Shown: positions 19,285 through 25,205 of the stretch, in pieces
How the letters are laid out: the number at the start of each line of letters is the position of its first letter
How positions within the stretch are numbered: position 1 is the first letter of the stretch
Origin: Candidatus Firestoneibacteriota bacterium
GTDB lineage: Bacteria; Oederibacteriota; D2-FULL-39-29; CAIOVX01
DNA: 54,463 nt
Direction: 5' to 3'
Assembly: GCA_903861835.1 (NCBI GenBank)
Contig: CAIOVX010000003.1
Span: forward strand, 1-54,463
The notes under the pieces: generated by a model
What the model was told of the DNA's origin: nothing
What the model saw: the letters and a program-made list of their open reading frames with translations, nothing else
The model's database searches: none
Translations under genes and position numbers: made by a program

Positions 19285-19974
19285 GTGCGCTTCACTGGGA
19301 TGAAAAAATACATTGTCCCGGCATCCGTTTTCGTTGTAGTTTTGGTGCTGTTCAATATTTTTATCGCGCTCCTGCTCGTTTCGTCCCTCCCGGTAATATA
19401 TTCATATCTGAAGAAAAGAAAAGACAAATTAACCTCTTTGCTTATTAATAAACAATTCATTGAAAGCCTTAAATTGATAGTAAGTTCTCTGCGCTCCGGG
19501 CAGACGTTGCTTATGGCTTTTGAGGATGCCGCAGTGCGTGTTGAAAAACCAATCGCTGATTATTACTCTGAAGTGCTGACTAATCACAGAATTGGAAAGA
19601 GCCTGGAAGCGTCGCTTATAGCGGTTGCCGGCCCGTACAACAATAATGACATGGAACTATTTGGCATCATCGTATCAATCCTGAAGGAATCCGGCGGCAA
19701 TACGGTTTTGCTTTTATCGAATATGATAGATGCTTCCGAGCAGAAGCAAAAACTGAAAGGAAAGATTGAAGCTATGACCGCACAGGGCAGGCTTTCCGGT
19801 TTGGTGGTAGGTGTTCTGCCTGTGGCGCTCCTTTTGATGTTTTGGTTCCTGGATAAAAGCTTGATTTCTCCCTTATTCAACACTTTGGAGGGGTTTCTGC
19901 TGCTCTTTTTGGCGGCCGTCCTCGAGGTCGCCGGACTATATCTAATAGCGCGAATAACTGAGGTTGAGCTTTAG
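19285..19974 (+). CDS. TadB-like type II secretion F-domain protein
   Basis: The 229-residue membrane protein has an N-terminal hydrophobic segment (YIVPASVFVVVLVLFNIFIA), a cytosolic T2SSF helical domain (FIESLKLIVSSLRSGQTLLM, then SLEASL and ILKESGGNTVLLLSNM), and two C-terminal helices. This is the layout of TadB, an inner-membrane platform protein of Tad/Flp pili, though shorter than typical. The GTG at 19285 suits the predicted transcription start; an in-frame ATG at 19300 is the alternative. It lies next to tadC, but no TadA, pilin or secretin gene is in the window. Confidence 0.75.
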   Translation: MRFTGMKKYIVPASVFVVVLVLFNIFIALLLVSSLPVIYSYLKKRKDKLTSLLINKQFIESLKLIVSSLRSGQTLLMAFEDAAVRVEKPIADYYSEVLTNHRIGKSLEASLIAVAGPYNNNDMELFGIIVSILKESGGNTVLLLSNMIDASEQKQKLKGKIEAMTAQGRLSGLVVGVLPVALLLMFWFLDKSLISPLFNTLEGFLLLFLAAVLEVAGLYLIARITEVEL

Positions 19975-20838
19975 ATGCTTACACTATTTTGCTCAATATT
20001 GGGAGGAGTATCCTTCTTTCTTGCGGTCAGTTATATCCAGGAAAAGGAGAGGATTGGTACGCTAAGAAAGTCTAAGGCGGTGACTGACTCCATAATAAAG
20101 AGAATCCTAAATTCTGATTATGCAGCAAGATTAGTGATGTTTTGCGCTAAGCTTAATGGAAGATTACCGTTTGGCAGCTATCGCGTCAGGCTTCAAGCGT
20201 TGCTTTTGCTCTCAGGTACAGAAGTAAGGTGCACTGCTGATGAGTTCCTGGCAAAGAAGGAAATATTCTTCCTTTTAGGGCTCTTTTTACCGGTCTTAGC
20301 GGGGGCTGCTGTGTGGCTTGCATCGGCAGTGGCATTAACCGTGTCTTTCCTGCCAGATCTTGAAGTGAGAAAAACAAGGAAAGATTATGAGAAAGATGTG
20401 TTGCGCTCCCTGCCGGTTGCGCTGGACATTTTAGCAGCCTGTATCGAAGCCGGTTTAACTTTCGACGCATCTTTGGCTAAATACGTGGAAAAATGCGCGG
20501 GCAATGCGCTTTCGGCCGAATTAAGAACTTATTTGGAAGAGGTCAGGCTTGGTAAAAGCAGGCAAGCGGCTCTCGTTGCTTTTGCAGCCAGGTCAGGCGT
20601 TGAAGAAATCCGTTCATTTACTTTAGCGGCTGCAAGATCAATTGAACACGGAACCGGAATGGCCGCGGCTTTACGTTCGCTGTGCGAATCCAACCGCCTG
20701 GCTTCAACTCTCAGGGCCGAGAAAAAGGCGGCCGAAGCGCCGGTTAAATTGCTATTTCCTTTGATCTTTTTCATTTTCCCGGTTATTTTTTTGATAATAT
20801 TTGGCCCTCTCCTGCTCAGGTTCCTCTCACAAAAGTGA
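19975..20838 (+). CDS. TadC-like type II secretion F-domain protein
   Basis: The 287-residue protein has an N-terminal helix, a central pair of helices (about residues 97-125) and a T2SSF domain (SLPVALDILAACIEAGLTFD, AARSIEHGTGMAAALRSL). The C-terminal helix begins after EKKAAEAPVKLLFPLIFFIF, which is a hallmark of TadC. It pairs with TadB as the inner-membrane platform of a Tad pilus or related secretion machine. The ATG follows the tadB stop directly, so the two genes are coupled. Confidence 0.8.
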   Translation: MLTLFCSILGGVSFFLAVSYIQEKERIGTLRKSKAVTDSIIKRILNSDYAARLVMFCAKLNGRLPFGSYRVRLQALLLLSGTEVRCTADEFLAKKEIFFLLGLFLPVLAGAAVWLASAVALTVSFLPDLEVRKTRKDYEKDVLRSLPVALDILAACIEAGLTFDASLAKYVEKCAGNALSAELRTYLEEVRLGKSRQAALVAFAARSGVEEIRSFTLAAARSIEHGTGMAAALRSLCESNRLASTLRAEKKAAEAPVKLLFPLIFFIFPVIFLIIFGPLLLRFLSQK

Positions 20839-20901: not shown

Positions 20902-21906
20902 ATGCTGATAAAAACGAGTTATGGTAAGTTTATTTATGCAGTTCTTTTCCTGGCTGCTCTTGCGCTCCCTTTTTTAGCCGGCGGCTATCAGCTTGGAATT
21001 GCCTCTTTTGTCCTTATCTATTTACTTCTATCTTTAGGTCTTAATGTTGTTATTGGTTTTTGCGGACTTCTGGCACTCGGCTTCGCGGCTTTCTACGGTG
21101 TTGGCGCATATGTCACCGCGCTTTTGTTTCCAAAACTGGCACTGCCTCTGCTGATTGCCTCGGCCATTGCCGGCGCTGCGCTTTTCGGTTTTTTCTCGGG
21201 AGCCCCTGTCTTACGGCTCAGAGGCGATTATCTTGCTATTGTTACTCTCGGGTTTGGCGAAATAACACGCTTGTTCCTTAAAAATATGGATTGGCTTACA
21301 AATGGTCCGAAAGGAATAAGCGGAATTTATCCGGAGGTATTTCTGGGACTCAACCTGACAGACAAGAAAAGTGCCTATCTCTGCTGTCTTGCTGCCGTAG
21401 CGCTTTGTGTCTTCCTGCTTTATAGACTGAAAGATTCTAAAATCGGCAGAGCTTGGACCGCAATACGGGAAGACGAGATAGCTGCCGCCTCTTGCGGAAT
21501 AGATATAAAAAAACTTAAGATTCTCGCGTTCCTTATAGGGGCGGCTATGGCAGGCCTGGGAGGTTTCTTCTTTGCCGTTAATCAGTCCTTCGTAGACCCA
21601 AACTCTTTTGGGTTCGACGAATCCGTTTTAATAGTCTGTATGGTAGTTATCGGCGGCATAGGAAGTATCCCGGGTGTGATACTCGGAACATTTATTCTTG
21701 TTCTGCTTCCTGAATTGCTCAGGAATTTTCTTGGAGGGTTTGAGTCCTACAGGATGCTCTTTTACGGGGTCTTACTGGTCTGCATGATGTTATTTCGCCC
21801 CCAGGGAATACTGCCTGATGAAGGCAGGAAGGCGGAGTTGCGACCGGCAACGGAAGGGATAAGGGACGAAGAGGATTCAAATGTTTTTGAAGAGCGGAGC
21901 AATTAA
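20902..21906 (+). CDS. livM: Branched-chain amino acid ABC transporter permease LivM
   Basis: The 334-residue membrane protein has about 9-10 helices and LivM features: LGLNVVIGFCGLLALGFAAF, the RLRGDYLAIVTLGFGEITRL loop that contacts the ATPases, and AGLGGFFFAVNQSFVDP with MVVIGGIGSIPGVILG near the end. It forms half of the inner-membrane channel for branched-chain or related amino acids. The other half, LivH, is not in this window. The ATG lies 5 nt after a -10 box. The stop overlaps the livG start by 1 nt (TAATG). Confidence 0.85.
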   Translation: MLIKTSYGKFIYAVLFLAALALPFLAGGYQLGIASFVLIYLLLSLGLNVVIGFCGLLALGFAAFYGVGAYVTALLFPKLALPLLIASAIAGAALFGFFSGAPVLRLRGDYLAIVTLGFGEITRLFLKNMDWLTNGPKGISGIYPEVFLGLNLTDKKSAYLCCLAAVALCVFLLYRLKDSKIGRAWTAIREDEIAAASCGIDIKKLKILAFLIGAAMAGLGGFFFAVNQSFVDPNSFGFDESVLIVCMVVIGGIGSIPGVILGTFILVLLPELLRNFLGGFESYRMLFYGVLLVCMMLFRPQGILPDEGRKAELRPATEGIRDEEDSNVFEERSN

Positions 21907-22685
21907 TGGCTAATTTACTGACAATTGATAATCTTTCGAAAAATTTCGGCGGTTTGACGGCTATTAATAACTTTTCGATGAATGTAGCGCAAGGTGAAAT
22001 ACTTAGCCTCATAGGGCCAAACGGAGCAGGCAAGACAACACTCTTCAATTGTATAACAGGAATCTACCGTCCTTCATACGGATCCATAAGTCTGCCGGGC
22101 GAAGGAGCGTTTATTGAAAAGCTGCCTCCTCATAAGGTAGCGCGCTTGGGGCTTGCCAGGACCTTCCAAAACATAAGGCTCTTTGCCAATCTGAGTGTAC
22201 TTGATAATGTCCTCTGCGGTGCTTTCTGCAGGACGAAAGAGTCTTTATTAGACATAGTTTTTCACACGCAAAAGTTTAATTCAGCCGAAAGAACAGTTAC
22301 CGCAAGAGCTATGGAACTCTTGAAGTTCGTTGATTTATCTGATAAATTGTTTGTGCCTGCCTGTAAACTGCCTTACGGCAGCCAGAGAAGGCTTGAAATC
22401 GCTCGTGCTCTTGCGCTGGAGCCTCAATTGCTCTTACTTGACGAACCGGCTGCAGGAATGAATGCTTCTGAAACAAACGGCCTGGGTGATCTAATTAGGA
22501 AGATTAAGAACTCCGGAATCACGCAAATTATCATAGAACACGATATGCGTTTCGTAATGGAAATCTCAGATAGAATAGTGGTATTGAACTACGGTGAAAA
22601 GATTGCCGAAGGTTCTCCGCTTGAAGTTAAGAATGACAAGAAAGTCATAGAAGCCTATTTAGGCGAGGGCCCGCAATGCACATAA
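21906..22685 (+). CDS. livG: Branched-chain amino acid ABC transporter ATPase LivG
   Basis: The 259-residue ATPase shows Walker A GPNGAGKTT, then the LivG-specific GLARTFQNIRLFANLSVLDN. The signature motif is changed (LPYGSQRRLEIARAL), as usual for LivG, and Walker B is LLLLDEPAAGMN followed by IIEHDMRFVM. It powers the LivM channel with LivF. It starts within the livM stop and its last 10 nt overlap the mini-PilT gene. Confidence 0.85.
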   Translation: MANLLTIDNLSKNFGGLTAINNFSMNVAQGEILSLIGPNGAGKTTLFNCITGIYRPSYGSISLPGEGAFIEKLPPHKVARLGLARTFQNIRLFANLSVLDNVLCGAFCRTKESLLDIVFHTQKFNSAERTVTARAMELLKFVDLSDKLFVPACKLPYGSQRRLEIARALALEPQLLLLDEPAAGMNASETNGLGDLIRKIKNSGITQIIIEHDMRFVMEISDRIVVLNYGEKIAEGSPLEVKNDKKVIEAYLGEGPQCT

Positions 22686-22897
22686 ATCTGTTGCTTCAGG
22701 AGATGCTTGGCCAGCATGCATCTGATATTCATCTGAAGGCAGGCGCGGTACAATACAGGATGCAGACTTTCGATCAGAGCCTGCTTGATCTTTACAGGAG
22801 GGATCTTATAACAATGGAAGACGCTCTTTCGGAGCCGACCACTCCGACTGACCTTAAACTGGGGCTCGATGGTTTGATTTCCAGCGGTATGGATTAA
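22676..22897 (+). CDS. Mini-PilT: PilT N- and C-terminal ends joined, ATPase core absent
   Basis: This 73-residue protein starts like the retraction ATPase PilT (LLLQEM, then HASDIHLKAGA, as in the PilT ASDLHLxAG strand). It continues directly with the PilT C-terminal signature MQTFDQSLLDLYRRDLITME and a DAL...DLKL tail. Roughly 290 residues containing Walker A, the Asp and His boxes and Walker B are missing, so it cannot hydrolyse ATP. The frame is intact. GAGGG at 22665-22669 is 6 nt before the ATG, and the gene overlaps livG by 10 nt and ends 13 nt before livF. It is either a decayed remnant kept for translational coupling, or a functional mini-protein, for example a subunit that pairs with PilT/Tad ATPases. 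The PilT relation is seen by motif only. Confidence 0.7.
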   Translation: MHINLLLQEMLGQHASDIHLKAGAVQYRMQTFDQSLLDLYRRDLITMEDALSEPTTPTDLKLGLDGLISSGMD

Positions 22898-22910
22898 AAA
22901 TCGCAAAGTG

Positions 22911-23612
22911 ATGCTTGATGTCTCAGACATAAGAATAGATTACGGCGGAATAGCTGCGGTACGCGGCGTTTCACTTTATGTGAAAATGGGTGAAATAGTA
23001 ACTTTGATAGGCGCGAACGGCGCAGGCAAAAGCAGTATATTGGCAGGTATCTGCGGTCTGGAAAAGCTTTCAGGCGGCTGCGTAAAGTTTGAAGGAAAAG
23101 ATATAACGGGTATCGGTGCAGCTCGAACCGCGGCTCTCGGTATTTCTCTGGTTCCTGAAGGTCGAAGAATATTCGGCAAAATGTCGGTGCTTGAAAACCT
23201 TGAAATGGGCGGCTACACGAAATCCTCGCTCGAACTGAAAGAAAGCCTTAAGGATATGCTGGAGGTGTTTCCGGTGCTTTCGGAAAGAACTGCTCAACAC
23301 GGAGGCACTCTAAGCGGAGGGGAACAGCAGATGCTGGCAATCGCCAGAGGCCTTATGAACCGGCCTAAACTGCTTCTTCTTGATGAGCCCTCGCTTGGGC
23401 TTTCACCTATTATGGAGCAGATTGTCTTTAAGATTATCAGAGAGATCAGGGAAAGGGGAACCACCCTGCTATTAGTTGAACAGAACGCAAACCTGGCGCT
23501 TGGAGTCTCGGACCGCGCGTATATAGTTGGAAACGGTGAAATTACTATGACCGGCAAAGCAGCGCTTTTGCTTCAAGACGTGAATGTAAGAAAATCATAC
23601 CTGGGCGGTTAA
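22911..23612 (+). CDS. livF: Branched-chain amino acid ABC transporter ATPase LivF
   Basis: The 233-residue ATPase has Walker A GANGAGKSS, the LivF-type LVPEGRRIFGKMSVLENLEM, signature LSGGEQQMLAIARGLM, Walker B LLLLDEPSLGLSP, and the switch region LLVEQNANLAL. It is the second nucleotide-binding subunit of the Liv importer. I prefer the ATG at 22911 to the overlapping GTG at 22908. No good Shine-Dalgarno sequence is present, so translation may depend on ribosomes finishing the mini-PilT gene just upstream. Its stop abuts the TPR gene. Confidence 0.85.
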   Translation: MLDVSDIRIDYGGIAAVRGVSLYVKMGEIVTLIGANGAGKSSILAGICGLEKLSGGCVKFEGKDITGIGAARTAALGISLVPEGRRIFGKMSVLENLEMGGYTKSSLELKESLKDMLEVFPVLSERTAQHGGTLSGGEQQMLAIARGLMNRPKLLLLDEPSLGLSPIMEQIVFKIIREIRERGTTLLLVEQNANLALGVSDRAYIVGNGEITMTGKAALLLQDVNVRKSYLGG

Positions 23613-25205
23613 ATGAGCGAAGAACTGGCAAAGAAATATTTAGGAGAGGCGAACGCGGCCTTGCAGGCGAAAGAGCTTGATGAAGCTCTGCAGCTTTTTG
23701 AACATGCTGCAGAGCAGGATCCAAACAATGCCGAAGCTCATACCCGGCTCGCTGAACTTTATTCCGAAAAAGGGATGAAGGAAAAAGCTGCCAATGAATA
23801 CCATCTCTTAGGAAGCGCTTACTATGAAAGCAGGCTTTTTAAGAACGCGCTGAAGTTTTTCCTGAAAGTCCTTGAGTTGGATCCCACGGCTATAGATGCG
23901 AGAATCAAGGCCGCAGAAATTTATGAAACGCAGGAAATGGAACGAGAGGCAAAACTGGAATACCTGGCTATCTCCGAGCACTTCCTTTCAAACGGCGATT
24001 TGTCGCGCGCTGAAGAGTTCGCAAAGAAAGCAATAGAATTAAAGAGCATCGAGGCCTATTATATCCTTGGACTGGTTTGTTTTAAGAGGGCTATGTGGAA
24101 AGAAGCTTCTCTTGAGTTTGAAAAACTCGTAAAGATAAAACTGAATCACGCCGGCGCCTGGACCCACCTGTCTATTTCGTATTCCTATCTCAATAAGTTT
24201 AATGAGGCTCTGGCAGCCGCAGAGAAGGTGCTAAAGATTGACCCGTTCGAGCCAAATGTTCAGCGCGCCGCAGGACTGGCATATTCAAAGAAGGGAGAAA
24301 TAAACAAGGCTACCCCTTTCTATATAGTTGCAATAGATGAGGCGCTGCACCACGCAGATGCCGAGAAGATACTTGAGGTCGCTAATGAGGCAGTTGCCAT
24401 GCTGCCGGGCTCGCCGGACATACTCTTTAAACGCGGCGAAGCCTTGGAGTTTGCAGAACTAGGAAAGCAGGCAGCGGAAGCTTTCAATTCTGCCGCCGAG
24501 CTTTATAGGAAAGGCGGCGCCGTTGATTCGGCAGGGATAGCAGTGGAGAGAGCGCGTGCTGCGGAAAAACTTGTGCCGAAAGATAAGGCTCAAAGAGAAG
24601 CAGAACAAAAAAAAGCAGATTCTTGCGCGGCCACGCCAAGCAGCCCTGTTTTCAACAATGGCGTAGCCGTACGGAAAAAAACCGCTGAAGCTGCTGCATC
24701 AAGCGAATCTCTCATTCTTGAGATAGACGGTAAAGAGAGGAAAATGGCCGTTAATCCGCAGGTTCCTGCGGCAGAAGCCTCTCCTGCAAAACAAGAACCA
24801 CTGGCAATAGCAAAAAGCCCCGCGGCAGCGGGTCCAAAGACCGGACCAGCCTGGGACGCGATTATTGATTCGTTGAAGAAAGATATTTCTATTATTCAAA
24901 GACCGGCTACAGCTGTATCGCCTGACGGAGCTCAAAGGATAACTCCTGATTCCATTGAAGACCTCTTCCTGTCGGCGGAAAAACATATTAAAGACGGTTT
25001 TTTTGAAAAGGCAATAGAGGTTTACAGGTCTGTACTTAAAAAATCACCGCGCAACACGGATGTTCGCGCAAAACTGCACCAGGCGTATCTGCTCCTCGCG
25101 CAGCAGGAAGATGACATCTCGGTGGCCCAGGAAAACCTGAGTGATAGGAGAAAACCTGACGGCGGCGGTTCCGGGAAAAAGAAGAGTAAAATCGCTTATC
25201 TTTAG
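23613..25205 (+). CDS. TPR-repeat protein with Ala/Pro-rich linker
   Basis: The 530-residue protein has no signal peptide or transmembrane helix. Residues about 1-330 are a series of at least seven TPR-like helical repeats (for example ALQLFEHAAEQDPNNAEAHT, ALKFFLKVLELDPTAIDAR, ALAAAEKVLKIDPFEPNVQ). Residues about 335-430 are a charged then Ala/Pro/Ser-rich linker. A last TPR follows (KAIEVYRSVLKKSPRNTDV) and the tail is basic. It is a cytosolic scaffold of unknown partner. It begins on the base after the livF stop, so it is co-expressed with the Liv transporter, although nearby tadBC make a pilus role equally possible. Confidence 0.7.
   Translation: MSEELAKKYLGEANAALQAKELDEALQLFEHAAEQDPNNAEAHTRLAELYSEKGMKEKAANEYHLLGSAYYESRLFKNALKFFLKVLELDPTAIDARIKAAEIYETQEMEREAKLEYLAISEHFLSNGDLSRAEEFAKKAIELKSIEAYYILGLVCFKRAMWKEASLEFEKLVKIKLNHAGAWTHLSISYSYLNKFNEALAAAEKVLKIDPFEPNVQRAAGLAYSKKGEINKATPFYIVAIDEALHHADAEKILEVANEAVAMLPGSPDILFKRGEALEFAELGKQAAEAFNSAAELYRKGGAVDSAGIAVERARAAEKLVPKDKAQREAEQKKADSCAATPSSPVFNNGVAVRKKTAEAAASSESLILEIDGKERKMAVNPQVPAAEASPAKQEPLAIAKSPAAAGPKTGPAWDAIIDSLKKDISIIQRPATAVSPDGAQRITPDSIEDLFLSAEKHIKDGFFEKAIEVYRSVLKKSPRNTDVRAKLHQAYLLLAQQEDDISVAQENLSDRRKPDGGGSGKKKSKIAYL

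Follow-up and report, generated by a model that had tools for sequence, protein, structure and literature searches.

A deletion remnant of pilT in a liv operon that probably persists as a translational bridge to livF

We describe a 73-codon open reading frame (ORF), here called mini-PilT, that lies between livG and livF in a genome of Candidatus Firestoneibacteriota. Judged by sequence comparison, it is the in-frame deletion remnant of an ancestral pilT and not a new protein family, and it probably persists in the liv operon as a translational bridge to livF. Mini-PilT runs from ATG to TAA at positions 22676 to 22897 (+ strand) of the window, by which we mean the whole stretch of 54,463 nucleotides that was analyzed. 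The gene order on this strand is tadB-tadC-livM-livG-[73-codon ORF]-livF-TPR. Both liv neighbors encode ABC transporter ATPases: livG (21906 to 22685, +; 259 aa) matches PRK11300/LivG with an E value of 8.9e-86, and livF (22908 to 23612, +) matches LivF with an E value of 1.6e-76. As the initial annotation had stated, the start of mini-PilT overlaps the end of livG by 10 nt (22676 to 22685) and its stop lies 13 nt before livF; the latter distance is to the ATG at 22911, and it is 10 nt to the GTG at 22908.

Mini-PilT consists of the first ~23 residues of PilT fused to the last ~50, and the entire ATPase core is gone. Its C-terminal end (22739 to 22894, +) comprises the last ~50 pilT codons minus the final five residues found in relatives, and its similarity to PilT is well above chance, both in a profile alignment of the kind first proposed as a check (TIGR01420 pilT_fam, residues 26 to 58, E = 7.8e-7) and against the PilT structure 5fl3 (E = 5.7e-9). 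The TIGR01420 score of 28.6 bits is below the family cut-off of 319.1, and no Pfam match was found at any useful score. The N-terminal end (codons 1 to 23; 22676 to 22744, +) has weak matches on its own in general libraries. It is 77 to 86% identical to the PilT N terminus of relatives with an intact gene (E about 2e-6 at 77 to 80%), reaching 86% over 22 codons with the liv-type pilT of four relatives. The C-terminal end is 72 to 80% identical to the intact liv-type PilT of the same relatives (73 to 80% across the feature as delimited above), and both ends aligned together give 73 to 77%. Mini-PilT is thus homologous at both ends to the PilT/PilU type IV pilus retraction ATPases (TIGR01420; Pfam T2SSE, PF00437), an intact form of which occupies the same locus in relatives. 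Unlike these ATPases, it has no ATPase core, Walker motif or GEMRD, all intact in the PilT of relatives, making a motor role impossible. The initial annotation was right that two PilT ends are joined in frame without the catalytic core. Its sizes needed revision: the junction falls at residues 21 to 23, ~285 rather than 290 codons are missing, and the last five residues of relatives are lost as well.

Relatives retain the complete gene. Our sample of the order comprised nine genomes, the window's own included. In two of them (G004 and G008), which belong to another, sister family, an intact 363-aa pilT sits at exactly the same site, in the order livM-livG-pilT-livF-TPR, and encodes the Walker motif GTAGNGKST. 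The pilT start overlaps livG in G004, and the pilT stop overlaps the livF start in both. Two other genomes (G005 and G007) carry the orthologue, 83 to 87% identical to the G004 PilT, in the order tadB-tadC-pilT-TPR, with the liv genes located elsewhere. Given these two arrangements, pilT has long neighbored tadBC and the TPR gene, and some members of the order have it interspersed among the liv genes. No match to livG or livF passed the threshold in G003, which is uninformative for this comparison. The window keeps the G004/G008 arrangement minus ~285 pilT codons, lost in frame. Its livG is 71 to 74% identical to that of two congeners (G001 and G002) and 53 to 54% identical to that of G004 and G008; its livF is 70% identical to the congeners' livF. 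By gene order, its two T2SSF (TadB/TadC-like) membrane protein genes (19285 to 20838, +) correspond to those upstream of pilT in genus g3. Its TPR protein gene (23613 to 25205, +), placed by sequence matches and gene order, adjoins pilT in genus g3 and lies one gene further away in genus g2.

The junction itself suggests how the core was lost. It lies at the sequence AGGCAGG (22737 to 22743, +), within the codons for KAG at residues 21 to 23. In the pilT of G004 and G008, the missing part is flanked by a short, imperfect direct repeat, with KAG codons on the N-terminal side and QAG codons on the C-terminal side. We infer an ancestor with pilT between livG and livF, from which the core would have been lost through slippage or recombination at this repeat. 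No intact copy of the liv-type pilT was found elsewhere in the window's own genome, which is 98% complete. That genome has eight T2SSE matches, and its PilT-type genes are other paralogues; the closest to mini-PilT (C95) shares only 53 to 55% identity with liv-type pilT, as against at least 83% among the liv-type orthologues. Both ends of mini-PilT are closer to the liv-embedded pilT of relatives than to any paralogue in its own genome, a comparison that the initial annotation had suggested. The locus therefore has two marks of a deletion remnant: an intact gene at the same place in relatives and no intact copy elsewhere in the genome. An assembly error, in which the core is missing from the contig alone, is highly improbable. 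The genome is a draft in 103 contigs; however, assembly graphs are not collapsed by a direct repeat as short as the ~7 to 10 nt at this junction. The flanking genes are collinear with those of the congeners, in which the core is likewise missing at this position, and no orphan contig with a pilT core was found in the genome.

A search of relatives for a small gene between livG and livF, also proposed at the outset, showed what the congeners carry. G001 and G002 have no pilT there, and instead have a 51-nt ORF of 16 codons that overlaps livG by ATGA and livF by TGATG. This ORF corresponds to the first few pilT codons plus the last ~12, and it may stem from a mini-like intermediate or from an independent deletion. 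Its starts, MSMN and MNII, resemble the MNIN of PilT, and its last 12 codons (LLSAGMNLKFAR and LLSCCADLKTSE) align to the pilT tail of the window and of relatives (LISSGASIKLKK). In a shuffling test, the two tails matched the window with P values of 0.001 and 0.005, and G004 more weakly, at 0.06 to 0.07. The matching stretch in the window (22874 to 22913, +) reaches the livF ATG and has a one-nucleotide gap relative to the congeners. This gap pulls the stop forward, so that the overlap with livF is lost, and the resulting change of frame removes the final five residues of the relatives' tail. At the other end, livG of the congeners terminates in the ATGA overlap; the window (22676 to 22685) lacks that stop codon, which leaves its livG two codons longer and produces the 10-nt overlap with mini-PilT. 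All three remnant species keep the start and a strong Shine-Dalgarno site.

In the window, this site (GGCGAGGG; 22662 to 22669, +) lies within the last codons of livG and has an anti-Shine-Dalgarno duplex energy of −7.2 kcal/mol, in the top 4% of background, in line with the good ribosome-binding site noted initially. Comparable energies were found for the 16-codon ORFs (−8.1 and −7.3 kcal/mol) and for both intact liv-embedded pilT genes (−7.5 kcal/mol). The window's livF, also correctly described as poorly provided, has no Shine-Dalgarno site of its own ahead of the ATG (+0.3 kcal/mol; −3.1 at the GTG), and across the five genomes with pilT or a remnant ahead of livF the ATG ranges from −0.3 to +2.9 kcal/mol. 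By contrast, where livG and livF are adjacent (nine genomes of the phylum), livF has energies of −3.3 to −11.1, although start choice in these controls is approximate, notably for L082. Note that the genomes are related, so this is not a contrast of nine against five independent events. It nonetheless matches the prediction of coupling via the intervening ORF. RNA folding around the livF start was ordinary in all three remnant species (z about 0), and thus no special structure masks it.

We propose that ribosomes bind the strong site within livG, translate the remnant, and then start again at livF by termination-reinitiation. Translation of livF would depend on this reinitiation, which would explain why the leftover ORF has stayed in frame and kept its ribosome site, and the frame probably now serves mainly to hand ribosomes to livF; the peptide itself is probably functionless. 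The literature discusses short ORFs whose sole role is to supply ribosomes (PMC12548453). Termination-reinitiation requires that the two frames overlap or stand very close together, and a gap of +14 nt lowers reinitiation by 40 to 80% in E. coli (PMC10666635). Spacing in G001, G002, G004 and G008 suits it well. In the window, with gaps of +10 nt (GTG) or +13 nt (ATG), coupling would therefore be weakened; the fit is marginal, at the ATG in particular, and this copy is probably decaying further, its stop having slipped off the livF start. The gap thus counts against a bridge to livF, and frame retention in two lineages could be chance. The initial suggestion of a relic retained as a bridge remains the best-supported reading: the intact pilT of relatives bears out the relic, and the contrast in livF sites lends the bridge partial support.

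How old the deletion is bears on what maintains the frame. Across the family split, the C-terminal end of mini-PilT shares 73 to 80% identity with intact liv-type PilT, and the intact paralogue C95 has the same range against its own orthologues (73 to 80%). Mini-PilT thus has no excess divergence and no sign of drift, and a rough Poisson bound limits neutral evolution since the deletion to no more than about 0.06 substitutions per site. For scale, dS exceeds 2 between the window and its congeners and is saturated between families. Either the deletion is recent or the residues are selected, and the lack of drift, while it fits a recent deletion, also fits selection on the peptide. Two well-conserved positions of the PilT C-terminal end are substituted (G to D in xGLI and A to P in EATxP), and these changes, together with the frame-shifted tail, favor recent decay.

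The initial annotation had also offered a selected micro-protein that interacts with full-length PilT or Tad ATPases or with the transporter; in this reading, the two retained PilT ends would regulate these partners. Mini-PilT is conserved relative to relatives as well as an intact paralogue is, and it has a good ribosome site. Nevertheless, we regard this explanation as very unlikely. No second mini-PilT was found, only the ends of full-length PilTs, in a contig scan, whole-genome searches of the order, and samples from this phylum and others. The 73-codon form was seen in one species only, the congeners carry a drifting 16-residue peptide instead, and the two conserved-site substitutions and the shortened tail do not suggest a maintained product. 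The AlphaFold model is a single long helix of low confidence (pTM 0.36) and is uninformative. Nor did we find a matching case in the part of the literature searched, consistent with the earlier statement that no mini-PilT in a liv operon had been described; its origin is simple.

A recent neutral remnant without any role, its frame kept by luck while livF initiates for itself at the GTG (22908), is somewhat less improbable, yet still unlikely. With no accelerated drift, the deletion is perhaps very young (at most the 0.06 neutral substitutions per site given above), a frame survives deletion by chance one time in three, and the window tail is already frame-shifted. Against this, the only livF genes without a ribosome site are those preceded by such an ORF or by pilT. 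Furthermore, the congeners retain the start, ribosome site, frame and livF overlap across a G001-G002 dS of about 0.65 while the peptide changes. Between them, the 16-codon peptide has a dN of 0.53, against 0.62 to 0.71 for dS in livG and livF, and so evolves at about the neutral rate, while start, frame, length and stop are unchanged. Such an ORF also stayed open to substitutions in ~60% of neutral simulations, and in fewer with indels counted, so that frame retention in G001 and G002 is suggestive only.

Two known phenomena resemble this locus. Bacterial pseudogenes in which short direct repeats gave rise to an in-frame deletion similarly keep their ends and lose the middle, are lineage-specific, and are eroded further in congeners. 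Unlike them, this remnant keeps its frame, start and ribosome site in three species, apparently for the sake of the gene that follows. Short ORFs translationally coupled to a downstream gene through ATGA or TGATG overlaps have the same strong site and end at or near a start without its own site, as the overlapping ORFs of G001 and G002 do. Unlike the usual coupling ORFs, the short liv ORF apparently derives from a hollowed-out full gene, and the window no longer has the overlap (+10/+13 nt). It is possible, though we would stop a little short of calling it likely, that an operon-trapped gene was hollowed out here, from 363 codons to 73 in one species and 16 in two, with selection keeping only the start, ribosome site, frame and stop for the next gene. 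Gene decay would then create a new coupling ORF with an irrelevant peptide. If the bridge is real, the locus offers a natural series from intact gene to 73 to 16 codons, in which a dying gene survives as a stepping stone for translation, and shows a possible source of short coupling ORFs. Regardless, chimeric small proteins with recognizable family ends call for caution, as they can be deletion remnants and not new micro-proteins.

Several observations concern the surrounding genes. In six genomes from other families of the phylum (L021, L022, L026, L028, L036 and L039), a single frame of ~760 to 820 aa joins PilT to a long TPR domain. In the window's order, PilT and the TPR protein are encoded by separate neighboring genes. 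This fusion in some families and adjacency in others suggests a working pair; a homology test between the neighboring TPR protein and the TPR part of the fusions gave an indecisive signal. The tadB/tadC-like genes of the window (19285 to 20838) are intact, though the pilT-type ATPase gene that adjoins them in G005 and G007 is hollowed out here. The liv cluster of the window (20902 to 23612) consists of livM-livG-livF only, and another permease of this family, perhaps livH, is encoded on a different contig of the genome (C74:11447-12283; L080).
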